Source: Betaproteobacteria bacterium
Lineage (GTDB): Bacteria > Pseudomonadota > Gammaproteobacteria > Burkholderiales > SG8-39
Length of the DNA stretch: 64,000 nucleotides
Direction: 5' to 3'
Assembly: GCA_016210745.1 (NCBI GenBank)
Contig: JACQTO010000207.1
Location: 1 to 64,000 of the forward strand
Part shown: positions 655 through 60,794 of the stretch, in pieces
Layout: each line of letters starts with the position of its first letter
Numbering within the stretch: the first letter of the stretch is position 1
Made by a program: the position numbers and the translations under genes
Notes under the pieces: generated by a model
The model's database searches: none
Seen by the model: only the letters and a program-made list of their open reading frames with translations
Told to the model about the DNA's origin: nothing

Positions 655-1959
655 ATGCGAAAATCAAGCGGTCTGAAGGCGGCAGTCAGTCGGACTGAGC
701 CATCTGCCCCCCGCTTTTCCAACGGCACGGGCGACGATCGAAAGAATCTGATAAATCTTCCCGCGGCCAACGGGCTGACAAGGAAGAATGGTCTAAATCT
801 GACCGGCGAAGCCGCGTCAAGGCAGCCGATAGTGCTCCTGATCGACGATGAGCGGACCCAGCGCATCGTCTTGCGTGAAGCACTGGAGCGCGAAGGTTTC
901 GCCGTGGAGGAGGCCGATAGCGGCCTCACCGGTCTGGAGGTATTCGACCGCGCCAGGCCCGACATCGTGCTCCTCGACGTGCGTATGCCCGGTATGGATG
1001 GCTTCTCCACCTGCACGGAACTGCGCAGGCGACCCTTGGGGGATCGCATACCGATCGTGATGCTGACGGTGTTGAACGACGCCACCTCGATCGACCACGC
1101 CTACGAGGTCGGCGCTACCGACTTCATCACCCGGCCGGTGGCATGGTCGATACTCGGGCGGCGCTTACGCTACATGCTGCGCGCAAGCGAAGCGTTCAAG
1201 GAATTGGCGAAGAGCGAAGCGGACCTGGTGCGCCGGATCGCAGAAAGGACTGCCGCGCTCGACGAGTCGAACCGCAGGCTGGAGGCGGCCAACCGGGAAC
1301 TCGAGGCATTCACCTATTCGGTTTCACATGATCTTCGAGCGCCGCTTCGGGCCATCGATGGGTTCACCGAAATGCTCGCCAAGGGCCTTGGTGGCGGGCT
1401 CGATCCGGGCTCCGCGGATCGTCTGGAGCGGATCCGTGCCGCTTCCGGCCGGATGACACGCTTGATCGATGACCTGCTCAAGCTCGCTGGCGTGGCGCGC
1501 CATGAGATCTGCAAGGAGGACGTTGATCTGAGCGCCATGGCCTCCGAGGTCGCCGAAGCACTGGCCCTCGCGGATCCGAGCGGGAAAACCCAGGTTATCG
1601 TGGGGCCTGGAATGCGTGCACATGCCGATCCCAGCCTGTTGCGCATCGCGCTCGAAAACCTGCTTTGCAACGCGTGGAAATTCACCTCGAGAACGCCTCA
1701 GCCGCGAATCGAAATCGGCAAACTCCAGGCGAGCGGAAATCCGGTCTATTTTGTTCGCGACAATGGCGCTGGCTTCAATCAGCAGTTCGCCGAACGGCTA
1801 TTTGCGCCGTTTCAGCGGCTGCACACTCAGGCAGAATTCGAAGGAACCGGCATCGGGTTGAGCATCGTTTCGCGAATAATTGCGCGCCACGAGGGCAGGA
1901 TCTGGGCCGAATCCCAGGAAGGGCAGGGGGCGACGTTTTTCTTTTCTCTGGTCCCTTAG
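655..1959 (+). CDS. Hybrid receiver-histidine kinase (REC-HisKA-HATPase)
   Basis: A 434-residue two-component protein with an unusual order. An N-terminal receiver domain (about residues 55-170; acidic IDDE and phospho-acceptor Asp in LLDVRMPGMDG) is followed by a coiled linker, a HisKA dimerisation domain (FTYSVSHDLRAPL, conserved His) and a HATPase_c domain (N box LENLLCNAWKF, G1 RDNGAGF, G2 GTGIGLSI). There are no membrane segments, so it is probably cytoplasmic and takes its input by phosphotransfer onto the receiver. The ATG at 655 has a GAGGGGGG ribosome site 9 bases upstream; the longer open frame begins inside the terminator and is not credible. No cognate output regulator is adjacent. 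The class resembles phytochrome-type or chemotaxis-like response-regulator kinases; its signal is unknown. Confidence 0.85.
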   Translation: MRKSSGLKAAVSRTEPSAPRFSNGTGDDRKNLINLPAANGLTRKNGLNLTGEAASRQPIVLLIDDERTQRIVLREALEREGFAVEEADSGLTGLEVFDRARPDIVLLDVRMPGMDGFSTCTELRRRPLGDRIPIVMLTVLNDATSIDHAYEVGATDFITRPVAWSILGRRLRYMLRASEAFKELAKSEADLVRRIAERTAALDESNRRLEAANRELEAFTYSVSHDLRAPLRAIDGFTEMLAKGLGGGLDPGSADRLERIRAASGRMTRLIDDLLKLAGVARHEICKEDVDLSAMASEVAEALALADPSGKTQVIVGPGMRAHADPSLLRIALENLLCNAWKFTSRTPQPRIEIGKLQASGNPVYFVRDNGAGFNQQFAERLFAPFQRLHTQAEFEGTGIGLSIVSRIIARHEGRIWAESQEGQGATFFFSLVP

Positions 1960-1974
1960 GCTCTTACAACTCGA

Positions 1975-2113
1975 TTGCTGACAGGCGAAGATTCGGTCTC
2001 TAAATCCGTCTCCCCTTTTCGCGCAATTGCTCGCAATTGCACGAAAAGGGGAGATCGATAAACGGCAAAAACCAGCTCCTTTGGTTCCGGCTCGTCCGGC
2101 TTTAGGATTGAGG
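1975..2113 (+). repeat. Dispersed palindromic element, copy A
   Basis: First of three related ~140 bp intergenic elements (others at 21881-22020 and 60113-60265). The core is a hairpin at 2009-2054: arms beginning TCTCCCCTTTTCG and ending CGAAAAGGGGAGA, inner arms GCAATTGC, a 2-base loop and a single mismatch. Flanks shared with the other copies are GGCGAAGATT on the left, GATAAACGGCAAAA and GGCTCGTCCG on the right. It sits between two convergent genes. There is no T-run, so it is not a standard terminator. Confidence 0.85.
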
Positions 2114-5472: not shown

Positions 5473-5507
5473 GGATCGGGGCTTTGGGAGTCAGGATTCA
5501 GGATCGA
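5421..5507 (+). repeat. TCAGGAT-type heptamer repeat tract
   Basis: A run of degenerate direct repeats (TCAGGATTCAGGA, ATCAGGATCC, ATCAGGATTGAGGATC, TCAGGATTCAGGATC). It starts inside the 3' end of the acyltransferase gene, passes its stop codon and continues into the intergenic space. Related tracts occur at 22066-22097, next to dispersed element C (60066-60136), and in short form at 21843-21852. Confidence 0.8.
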
Positions 5508-20416: not shown

Positions 20417-21010
20417 ATGCCTGCACGAAAAACAGGAGAGCGCAAGCACCGAATCCTTCAGGTGCTTGCAGAAATGCTGCAAGACCCGAAAGGCGAGCGA
20501 ATCACGACCGCTGCCCTTGCCAAAGAACTCGAGGTGTCCGAGGCGGCGCTATACCGCCACTTTGCCAGCAAGGCGCAGATGTTCGAAGGGTTGATCGATT
20601 TCATCGAACAAACCCAATTCGGCCTGATCAACAAGATCGAGGGTGAGGAGGAGAGCGGATTGAAACAATTGCACGCAATCGTTGCCATGTTGCTGGGTTT
20701 CGCCGAGAAGAACCCCGGCATGACGCGCGTGCTGATCGGGGATGCGCTGGTAAATGAGGATGCGCGCCTGCAGGCGCGCATCAGCCAATTGCATGACCGG
20801 CTCGAGGCGACGTTGAAACAATGTCTGCGGGTGGCAGCGACCCAGGCGAACGAGGGCGGCCCTGACGGGGCGGCGGAGGCGCCGGACCCCACAGCTCGGG
20901 CCAACTTGGTACTGTGCTACGTCATCGGCCGGTGGCACCAATTTGCGAAGAGCGGTTTCAAGCGACAGCCGACGGCGATGTTTGAGCAGCAGTTGCCGAT
21001 GTTGCTGTAG
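20417..21010 (+). CDS. slmA: Nucleoid occlusion factor SlmA (TetR family)
   Basis: 197 residues. A TetR-type helix-turn-helix (RITTAALAKELEVSEAALYRHFASKAQMFEGLIDFIE) is followed by the SlmA C-terminal domain (NPGMTRVLIGDALVNEDARLQARI, KSGFKRQPT). SlmA binds DNA over the nucleoid and disrupts FtsZ assembly there. The ATG at 20417 follows a GAGGAGGGG site. Upstream frame is not conserved. Confidence 0.93.
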   Translation: MPARKTGERKHRILQVLAEMLQDPKGERITTAALAKELEVSEAALYRHFASKAQMFEGLIDFIEQTQFGLINKIEGEEESGLKQLHAIVAMLLGFAEKNPGMTRVLIGDALVNEDARLQARISQLHDRLEATLKQCLRVAATQANEGGPDGAAEAPDPTARANLVLCYVIGRWHQFAKSGFKRQPTAMFEQQLPMLL

Positions 21011-21045
21011 CTCCACGGCCCGCCGGGGTATTCGGGGCGGGCGCA

Positions 21046-21069
21046 GTGACGCGGCGTTGGGCGCGTCAC
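21046..21069. other. Strong hairpin between convergent slmA and moeB-like genes
   Basis: GTGACGCG / CGCGTCAC, a perfect 8-bp stem with an 8-base loop. It has no T-run on either strand. The position between two convergent 3' ends suggests a bidirectional termination or mRNA-end role. Confidence 0.5.
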
Positions 21070-21074
21070 TCGAG

Positions 21075-21857
21075 CTACGAAGGCAGCGCCACGGGCTTGC
21101 CGCACACCTCACAGCCGTGGTTCTTTGAGATTCGGATCTCGTGCCAGCGCATTGCCAGGGCGTCCAGGATCAGCAGCCGCCCGCTCAGGGTTTCGCCCAT
21201 GTCGATGAGGATTTTCAGTGCCTCGGCCGCCTGAATGGTGCCCACGATTCCAGTGACCGGGGCGAAGACGCCCATCACGGCGCAGCGTTCCTCGCTCTGT
21301 TCGGCATTCTCGGGAAACAGGCACTCGTAGCAGGGGCTGGCACGATCGCGAAAATCGAACACCGCCACTTGACCGTCAAAGCGTATGCCCGCGCCCGAGA
21401 CCAGCGGTTTACCGAACCGGTGGCAGGCGCGATTTATGGCGTGGCGGGTGGGAAAGTTGTCGGAGCAGTCGAGAACCACGTCGGCTTGCGCAACCCGTGC
21501 GTCGAGCAAGTCGCCCTCGAGACGGTGATCGACGCACACGACCTCGACTTCGGCATTGAACCGTGCCAGGGTTTCCCGTCCGGATTCGACCTTGGGCATT
21601 CCCAGAGTCGCCGGCGTGTGCAGTATCTGCCGCTGCAGATTAGTCAGGTCGACCCGGTCGCCGTCGGCCAAAGTGATCCTCCCGACGCCGGCCGCAGCGA
21701 GGTAGAGCGCCGCCGGCGAGCCCAGCCCGCCGGCACCGACGATGAGGACACGTGAGTTCAGCAACCGTTCCTGGCCCTCGATTCCGAAGGCAGGCAGGAG
21801 GATATGGCGGGAATAGCGCAGTAACTGGTCGTCGGTCATGTAGTCAGGATTCAACAT
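21075..21857 (-). CDS. MoeB/ThiF-family adenylyltransferase
   Basis: 260 residues of the E1-like superfamily that adenylates the C-terminus of a ubiquitin-like sulfur carrier (MoaD or ThiS). Signatures: DQLLRYSRHILLPAFGIEGQ, VLIVGAGGLGSPAALYLAAAGVG (nucleotide site), NLQRQILH and DCSDNFPTRHAINRAC. Zinc-site cysteines are CYEC and CEVC. Whether it serves molybdopterin (needed for the XDH in this window) or thiamine cannot be told. ATG at 21857 is used; an ATG at 21839 is equally possible, and a heptamer repeat lies between them. Confidence 0.9.
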   Translation of the reverse strand: MLNPDYMTDDQLLRYSRHILLPAFGIEGQERLLNSRVLIVGAGGLGSPAALYLAAAGVGRITLADGDRVDLTNLQRQILHTPATLGMPKVESGRETLARFNAEVEVVCVDHRLEGDLLDARVAQADVVLDCSDNFPTRHAINRACHRFGKPLVSGAGIRFDGQVAVFDFRDRASPCYECLFPENAEQSEERCAVMGVFAPVTGIVGTIQAAEALKILIDMGETLSGRLLILDALAMRWHEIRISKNHGCEVCGKPVALPS

Positions 21858-21880
21858 CCAAGATTTAGTCGCTTACAGGT

Positions 21881-22020
21881 CTACTGCCGACAAATTTGGC
21901 GAAGATTTGGTTTCTAAACTCGTCTCCCCTGTGCAGTTGCTTGCAACTGCACAGGGGAGATCGATAAAACGGCAAAACCAGCTTCCTTGGTTCAGGCTCG
22001 TCCGACTTGGAATCGAGGAT
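21881..22020 (+). repeat. Dispersed palindromic element, copy B
   Basis: Second copy. The core 21923-21960 is a perfect 18-bp hairpin, TCTCCCCTGTGCAGTTGC / GCAACTGCACAGGGGAGA, with a TT loop. Its inner arm sequence differs from copies A and C, yet both arms remain complementary. Conserved flanks: GACAAATTTGGCGAAGATTT before and GATAAAACGGCAAAACCAGC after, then GGCTCGTCCG. It lies between ctpA and the moeB-like gene, both on the minus strand. Confidence 0.9.
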
Positions 22021-22065
22021 CTGGGATTCGGGGAAACCTCCGATGTCCCTTCGCTTCGGTGTTCT

Positions 22066-22097
22066 AAATCCTGAATCCTGAATCCTGGATCCTGAAT
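22066..22097 (+). repeat. Heptamer repeat tract (ATCCTGA units)
   Basis: Four consecutive units AATCCTGA / ATCCTGG directly after dispersed element B and 2 bp before the ctpA stop codon on the opposite strand. They are the reverse complement of the TCAGGAT units at 5421-5507. Confidence 0.8.
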
Positions 22098-60112: not shown

Positions 60113-60265
60113 CTGGATCCTGAATCCTAAGCGGGACGAGCCGGAACCAGTGAAGTTGGTTTTGCCGTTTATCAATCTCCCCTTTTCATGCAGTTGCGTG
60201 CAACTGCATGAAAAGGGGAGACGAATTTGGAAACCAAATCTTCGCCAAATTTGTCAACAGTACAC
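60113..60265 (-). repeat. Dispersed palindromic element, copy C (inverted orientation)
   Basis: Third copy, in opposite orientation to A and B. Core 60176-60221: a perfect 22-bp hairpin with a GT loop, outer arms TCTCCCCTTTTCATGC / GCATGAAAAGGGGAGA, inner CAGTTGC. Flanks match B closely: GACAAATTTGGCGAAGATTT, GATAAACGGCAAAACCA and GGCTCGTCCCG on the minus strand. A heptamer tract (GGATCCTGAATCC) adjoins one end. Located between the convergent xdhB and gpt genes. Confidence 0.9.
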
Positions 60266-60275
60266 TTGTAAGAGA

Positions 60276-60794
60276 CTAATCCGGTCCGCCCACCGCCCGG
60301 CCGCCGTCCTTGATCGGGGTGGCGAAGCGATACTCGATATCCCAAGGAAAGTGGATCCACTTGTTCTGCTTGAATTCCTTGACGCAGGTGTCGACGAACT
60401 CCTTGCCCGCCGGCTTGGCGTAGAGCGTCGCGAAGTAGGCTTTCGGAATCAGCTTGCGGACCACCCGTGCCGTGCCTCCCGTGTCCACCAGATCGTCGAT
60501 GAGCAGGAACCCTTCGCCATCGCCGGGCACGCCTTTCAGCACCTGCACATCGCCCTGCACCTGAGCCGCCTGCCCCGCCGTGCCGGCGTCATAGCTGGTG
60601 ACGCACACGGTGTCCACAAGCCGGATGTCGAGCTCGCGCGCAACCAGCGCCGCCGGGATCAGGCCGCCCCGGGTGACCGCGATGATTCCCTTCCATGGTC
60701 CCTTGCTGAGCAGTTCGTGGGATAGAAAGCGGGAATCGCGGTGCAACTCCGGCCAGGAAATGACGATCTCGTTTTCGTAGGGGTTGCGTGTCAT
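60276..60794 (-). CDS. gpt: Xanthine phosphoribosyltransferase
   Basis: 172 residues of the Gpt type. VISWPELHRDSRFLSHELL start, GIIAVTRGGLIPAALVARELDIRLVDTVCVTSYD and PRPP loop FLLIDDLVDTGGTARVV, ending with FPWDIEYRFATP. Converts xanthine and guanine to XMP/GMP using PRPP. Starts 19 bp after the ABC permease on the same strand, so it is probably the last gene of the transporter operon. Confidence 0.93.
   Translation of the reverse strand: MTRNPYENEIVISWPELHRDSRFLSHELLSKGPWKGIIAVTRGGLIPAALVARELDIRLVDTVCVTSYDAGTAGQAAQVQGDVQVLKGVPGDGEGFLLIDDLVDTGGTARVVRKLIPKAYFATLYAKPAGKEFVDTCVKEFKQNKWIHFPWDIEYRFATPIKDGGRAVGGPD

Follow-up and report, generated by a model that had tools for sequence, protein, structure and literature searches.

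A mobile hairpin element of about 150 bp dispersed through a betaproteobacterial genome, and template switching as a possible keeper of its palindrome

A mobile, high-copy, non-autonomous hairpin element is present in the 64,000-nucleotide stretch of DNA analyzed here (the window). We propose that its copies belong to a MITE-like mobile element of about 150 bp, whose palindrome would be kept at the DNA level mainly by template switching and which would depend on an IS200/IS605-type enzyme acting in trans; the chances that this proposal as a whole is right appear to be about even. The original prediction described three copies in the window. All three are real, and their true limits lie 7–19 bases away from those first reported. 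The copies and their hairpins were mapped as follows.

1956..2106, + strand, copy A: TTAG (1956-1959) and the element up to CTTTAGG; search match at 1963-2106, 145.5 bits.
2009..2054, + strand, copy A hairpin: 22-bp stem with one C-A mismatch, loop TC.
21865..22010, + strand, copy B: TTAG and the element up to CTTGG; search match, 147.9 bits.
21923..21960, + strand, copy B hairpin: 18-bp perfect stem, loop TT.
60126..60279, − strand, copy C: TTAG (60276-60279) and the element up to CTTAGG at 60126; search match, 179.1 bits.
60176..60221, − strand, copy C hairpin: 22-bp perfect stem, loop AC on the minus strand.

The element is thus 146–154 bp long in copies A, B, and C. Re-reading and folding of the sequences confirmed that the hairpins of copies B and C are perfect and that copy A has one mismatch, and an alignment of the three copies bore out that their outer sequence is common and that the arm changes are paired. 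The folding z-scores of copies A, B, and C were −5.2, −7.6, and −7.5, respectively, and none of 200 shuffles of each folded as well. Copies A and C lie between convergent genes and copy B between co-directional genes, and the orientation varies (A and B on the plus strand, C on the minus strand), as had been described. Copy A is flanked by a response-regulator/histidine-kinase gene and a MASE2/PAS gene, copy B by a ThiF gene and an S41-peptidase gene, and copy C by a molybdopterin-binding oxidoreductase gene and a phosphoribosyltransferase gene. A domain scan of the six neighbor proteins detected ordinary domains in all and a transposase in none (0/6), in agreement with the earlier statement that no transposase adjoins the copies. 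A histidine-kinase-like gene (832-1959) ends with the TAG contained in the TTAG of copy A, and the phosphoribosyltransferase gene (60276-60794, − strand) with that of copy C.

The window's own genome (G000; 5.2 Mb, 270 contigs) was searched with a 28-base pattern lying outside the hairpin apart from its first 5 bases. With up to 3 mismatches, the pattern matched 211 places and its reversed control none, so the predicted dispersed repeat is no product of chance and occurs genome-wide, not in three copies. At 150 bp each, these places amount to about 0.6% of G000. In a DNA search of the same genome, the full-length copies among the best 40 of 342 candidates (all 40) were 81–100% identical. An older subfamily with a GGTCTCGTG stem and loops that are often 6 bases long (AACTTC, GAAGTT) coexists with the main subfamily, and is common to G000 (L006:186-328, L194:1604-1744, L211:3120-3266, and others) and the relative G003 (L100, L103).

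Among 149 genomes (G000 included), the 28-base pattern matched only G000 and G003, the latter at 7 places, one of which falls on a suspect contig (G003:C145, JACPRN010000209.1, L034/L035). Across 2756 bp this contig shares 99.7% identity with G000, compared with about 75–83% in the other compared regions of G003; because of the 99.7% identity, it is likely misbinned or derived from a near strain. A covariance model built from 27 G000 copies matched 15 of the 149 genomes (best 21 candidates or fewer per genome). Of 98 family genomes searched with a model built from 48 diverse copies (G000 included), 22 contained diverged relatives, spread over 9 of 26 genera (best 31 candidates or fewer per genome); among these best candidates, G000 to G003, G015, G038, G053, and G028 each gave at least 29–31 matches. 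In G028, a family genome with 29 matches, nearly all matches of the 27-copy model covered the hairpin part only, and these may represent a different hairpin repeat. The right end alone was found in G000 (164), G001 (28), G015 (15), G085 (13), G053 (11), G003 (4, one on the suspect contig), G002 (1), and G038 (1), and in none of three further family genomes, with controls at 0 throughout. The 48-copy model matched none of 368 other genomes of the class besides G000 (best 8 candidates per genome, a depth at which weak or few copies would escape). No match was obtained in plasmids and phages by distant blastn with copy B as the query, nor in viral contigs with two end patterns. As far as sampled, the range of the element is one family of Betaproteobacteria. 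The repeat is named in no title found in literature searches of open-licence papers, which did not cover sequences.

The earlier suggestion that the element moves is supported by empty orthologous sites. In none of the three genus relatives (G001, G002, and G003) does the orthologous interval contain a match to copy B, and that of G003, the sole readable relative for copy A, contains none to copy A, although this absence could reflect a loss in G003. A G001 copy (L137:508-655, 87.9 bits) lies on the opposite (3') flank of the ThiF gene; the counterpart in the window (about 20975-21102) is empty, and G002 has a weak and partial match (E 0.02) on this flank. Since copy B is absent from the relatives and the G001 copy beside ThiF is absent from the window, placement differs in both directions between relatives. 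The proposed empty-site check therefore yielded absences, and placement is not identical in the relatives. For copy C, the left neighbor is not syntenic. The stop codon of its phosphoribosyltransferase gene occupies one and the same position in G000 (TAG), G003 (TAG), and G001 (TGA), with the element directly 3' in G000 only; the stop position at copy C therefore belonged to the host gene. The host gene of copy A stops 4 codons ahead of its G003 counterpart, and hence not every insertion followed a stop shared with relatives. Two orthologous places, L009/L039 and L043/L051, hold a copy in G000 as well as in G003, indicating that some insertions predate the split of the two and that not all copies are young.

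The covariation test suggested with the original prediction gave very strong support. In a sequence-only alignment of 116 G000 copies, the near-full members of a set of 183 that a sequence profile had detected in stretches around earlier matches, the named stem was paired in 98.3% of cells. Double-changed cells numbered 184 compared with 24.0 (sd 4.2) after shuffling (0/500) and 11–35 with slid partners, and 15 of the 22 stem pairs showed a double change. An alignment of 48 copies from 8 genomes was likewise 98.3% paired, with 202 double-changed cells against 60.1 (sd 5.2) shuffled (0/500) and 18–31 slid, and with a double change in 17 of 23 stem pairs; its 43 foreign copies are the best matches of a model that includes the hairpin, a selection that favors paired copies. 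The stem structure for both tests was taken from one row per alignment. One-side (G-U) cells were rare, 11 in the 116 G000 copies and 5 in the 48 copies. The original prediction would have failed with only three copies, no covariation, and identical placement; instead, 211 places, strong covariation, and differing placement were found.

When the best hairpin was searched for in 163 G000 copies, a procedure that favors pairing, 108 stems had no mismatch and 43 had one. Among 43 foreign copies from seven genomes, 28 stems had no mismatch and 11 had one, with lengths of 17–25 bp, and the stem is mostly 22–23 bp in all 8 genomes. An outer box (TCTCC or TCCCG) and an inner box (GTTGC..GCAAC) are conserved, whereas the middle varies yet pairs. 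Mismatches of the G-T and A-C types numbered 17 and 29, respectively, in the 163 G000 stems, and 5 and 6 in the 43 foreign stems. Because G-T mismatches do not exceed A-C mismatches, there is no special tolerance of G-U on the top strand. Changes that compensate each other are commonly taken to prove selection on an RNA structure, and here a mobile DNA palindrome shows the same signal in many copies, with hardly any G-U pairs. The very strong covariation was probably produced at the DNA level. An explanation by triplex formation (PMC4666352) was considered and does not fit the element.

The loops of the hairpins carry a further regularity. Two-base loops occur in 126 of the 163 G000 copies, and they fall into reverse-complement partners, namely TT (40) and AA (27), GT (15) and AC (11), TC (6) and GA (2), and AG (5) and CT (3), together with the self-complementary AT (14), GC (2), and CG (1). 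The loops TG, CA, CC, GG, and TA are absent from the 126, TG and CA being the plain reverse and complement of GT. Among 62 pairs of copies whose flanks differ by at most 8 edits, 20 had reverse-complement loops compared with 10.5 after shuffling (P 0.02); at 6 edits or fewer, 16 pairs comprised 6 with the same loop, 6 with the reverse complement (2.7 shuffled, P 0.048), and 4 others. The excess is modest in both comparisons, whose pairs are not independent. A less careful comparison with other flanks (6 edits or fewer) gave 4 same, 4 reverse complement, and 0 other.

Template switching between the arms of a palindrome has been described as homogenizing the arms and inverting spacers (PMC8604942), and is a proposed means by which hairpins are maintained (PMC8794818). 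The element would share with these cases the homogenization of arms and the inversion of loops or spacers; the cases in both papers concern rRNA genes and a yeast coding sequence and loop inversions are rare there, whereas a dispersed element is involved here. In the proposed mechanism, template switching during replication would copy one arm from the other, keeping the stem paired, and would sometimes invert the loop. Since one arm is rewritten from the other in this process, compensation would need no RNA-level selection on each copy. The paired changes, the scarcity of G-U, and the loop partners fit template switching as its marks, but do not prove it. The original prediction had offered selection for the fold or templated copying of it; templated copying agrees with the loops and the scarce G-U pairs, albeit unproven, and selection at the RNA level is unsupported. 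Inheritance from active copies that require the hairpin to move would add to stem pairing, and part of the pairing must be owed to it. The constant stem of 22–23 bp is unexplained by arm copying alone, and a stem length held so steady points to a further requirement for the hairpin, of which mobility would be the simplest.

Mobility might even account for the pairing by itself, if active copies need a hairpin of fixed size, compensation arose in active lineages, and dead copies inherit the hairpin and then decay. This reading is unlikely. It is consistent with a stem that is mostly 22–23 bp long and with the conserved outer and inner boxes across 8 genomes. Changes seen once in their class (79 or 35 stems) were mostly unpaired, 29 being uncompensated and 16 compensated, as decay predicts. 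The arms are also somewhat less diverged than the flanks, the all-pair divergence per site being 0.227 and 0.225 for the arms, 0.295 for the left flank, and 0.234 for the right flank; selection would give this difference too. In pairs chosen by one flank, the arms differed by 0.09–0.155 per site compared with 0.156–0.238 for the other flank. A faster evolution of the arms than of the flanks was rejected, since its appearance is a bias from choosing pairs by flank closeness and the arms are otherwise less diverged. On the other hand, copies of this age carry few mismatches, 0.415 per stem in 118 copies with flanks that differ by 0.23–0.30 per site between copies, and the loop partners are left unexplained.

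Ectopic gene conversion, in which palindromes are copied among the 200 or more copies, could leave marks similar to those of template switching, because a donor fits in either orientation, so that the loop is flipped and both arms change. We consider it doubtful as the main cause. In 114 of the 163 stems (the two main lengths), changed pairs were compensated in 177 instances and uncompensated in 45, and 161 of the 177 compensated states are common to several copies; such states may therefore have been inherited or spread by conversion. The stems at L009/L039, a place occupied in both species, differ from each other, and this as well as the reverse-complement loop partners would be expected from conversion. 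However, the 16 compensated pair states found once are unique in their class, and 97 of 163 left arms occur once, in both cases in the part of all copies that was covered. Conversion tracts must moreover end near the hairpin borders. The GGTCTCGTG subfamily also speaks against conversion; because it is shared by two species, the stems have not been fully homogenized within a genome.

It is improbable that the hairpin is a structured RNA or 3'-end element, selected in transcripts as an mRNA stabilizer, RNase III site, or terminator, even though the strong covariation and the somewhat lower divergence of the arms would suit it. Gene contexts were determined with a codon-usage gene caller for 128 of 137 copies, the other 9 lying at stretch ends. 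None of the 137 copies is within a called gene, and convergent sites are slightly enriched (29/128 compared with 20.0 expected, P 0.023). This excess is what an RNA or terminator role would add, but such a role is not supported for most copies. Between co-directional genes the two orientations were represented by 47 and 38 copies (P 0.39), showing no preference, and 14 copies lie between divergent genes. Mismatch counts gave no top-strand G-U tolerance, as described above, and no Rfam family matched the element above the gathering score in the window and 20 loci. RNA-level selection is thus unsupported, since gene orientation is unbiased and G-U pairs are rare. An intrinsic terminator was rejected on the lack of a U-run 3' of the stem in copies A, B, and C together with the lack of orientation bias. 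The earlier idea of an RNA element acting as a transcript end is not supported by these observations.

The ends of the element are sharp, with TCACTTAC directly behind TTAG at the left and CCGGCTCGTCCGGCTTAGG at the right limit. Among 183 copies read from stretches around earlier matches, conservation begins abruptly at TTAGTCACTTAC on the left (43 anchored copies) and ends abruptly past CTTAGG on the right (149 copies). TTAG is present at both borders, and the left TTAG is conserved. The TTAG at both borders could suggest a target duplication and hence a classical DDE-type MITE, which would also have terminal inverted repeats. This is very improbable, since the ends match at 6 of 20 bases (4.3 in shuffles, P 0.24) and so form no terminal inverted repeat, the left and right TTAG variants are independent (22/56 equal, 22.05 expected), and a check of 36 copies brought out no duplicated k-mer. 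A dispersed, mobile, structured repeat of about 155 bp with compensating changes, bcr1, is present in Bacillus cereus and has a target duplication. The present element belongs to another lineage and has another sequence, and no target duplication was found in it. Its size and the absence of a gene support the earlier description as MITE-like.

We propose that the element inserts 3' of a target resembling TTAG, in many cases a stop codon. Co-oriented upstream genes ended exactly at the TTAG border in 18 of 76 cases (16 with TAG), any other distance being represented at most 3 times (72 of the 76 shown). Genes running in from the right had their stop within the right end of the element in 10 of 67 cases. 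The strand of the element agreed with the local GC skew in 76 of 126 copies (P 0.026) and at 20 of 33 places with strong skew, so that the preference is weak.

In the mechanism favored here, a single-strand, hairpin-recognizing enzyme of the IS200/IS605 kind, acting in trans, would move the element. Elements of the IS200/IS605 group are mobilized in single-stranded form, carry palindromic ends, and rely on short guide sequences to select their cleavage sites (PMC8266576). The element is like them in having no terminal inverted repeat, no target duplication, a right end with a short hairpin sequence (CCGG..CCGG in the consensus), a tetranucleotide, TTAG, conserved at the left border, and the weak strand preference relative to GC skew. 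It is unlike them in its central palindrome of 22–23 bp, and no TnpA with matching ends was found beside three Y1 genes or in 722 kb. The element may be an IS200-type passenger, as proposed earlier. It is conceivable, though rather unlikely, that the element represents a new kind of single-strand element inserting behind TTAG stops, with a palindrome rewritten in place by template switching, hundreds of copies recording arm copying and loop inversion, and a 22–23 bp stem serving as the recognition feature of the enzyme. If template switching is the cause, the family documents in a natural setting how arms are copied and loops inverted, and RNA covariation tests in repeats need a DNA-level control.

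G000 contains three Y1 transposase genes. None has the element directly beside it (0/3), and their flanks differ from the element; a RAYT/TnpA-Y1 gene with matching flanks was thus not found among the three. Each of the three has one copy of the element about 3–5.5 kb away (12–13 kb stretches L224, L225, and L226), a proximity that may be due to chance at the density of the element in G000. End profiles run over 722,052 bases, equal to 14% of G000, detected no gene-bearing version. The right end followed within 300 bases for 102 of 106 left ends; 4 of the 106 left ends and 21 of 120 right ends were unpaired, and none of these pairs farther off within 6 kb. Copies without a hairpin were considered and rejected, as the shortest end-to-end spans, under 45 bases, proved to be one copy with a shortened hairpin.

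The REP family, which had been suggested as a source, resembles the element in its hundreds of intergenic palindromic copies and in termini that supply a TAG stop codon (PMC3733652, also for the other statements on REPs here). The short stem of GTAG REPs (5–13 bp) has an unpaired GTAG tag at its foot, whereas the element of about 150 bp has no GTAG tag and a stem mostly of 22–23 bp, and the three Y1 genes have different flanks; assignment to the REP/RAYT system was rejected for these reasons. CGTC REPs have an unpaired CGTC tag, a stem of 8–9 bp, and a loop of 4–5. Many copies of the element carry CGTC at the foot of the stem, but its TC pairs, the stem is mostly 22–23 bp, and the loop is 2 bases in most G000 copies, and this group was rejected as well.

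Other small repeats were seen alongside the element. One Y1 gene (L031) has GGGGTCAGAG repeats on both sides, which are like the GGGGWSAS motif (PMC3733652). In a copy of the element at about 1500-1640 of L051, a small inverted repeat (GGGGTCAGAGTAAC...) resembling the sequences on either side of the L031 Y1 gene breaks up the hairpin; this repeat is a separate miniature element nested in the hairpin element. Short tandem repeats resembling GGATTCA (window positions 22065-22092, 60114-60127, and 5494-5507) and a CCGCGC..GCGCGG hairpin (60089) share, for many copies of the element, the intergenic places of these copies.
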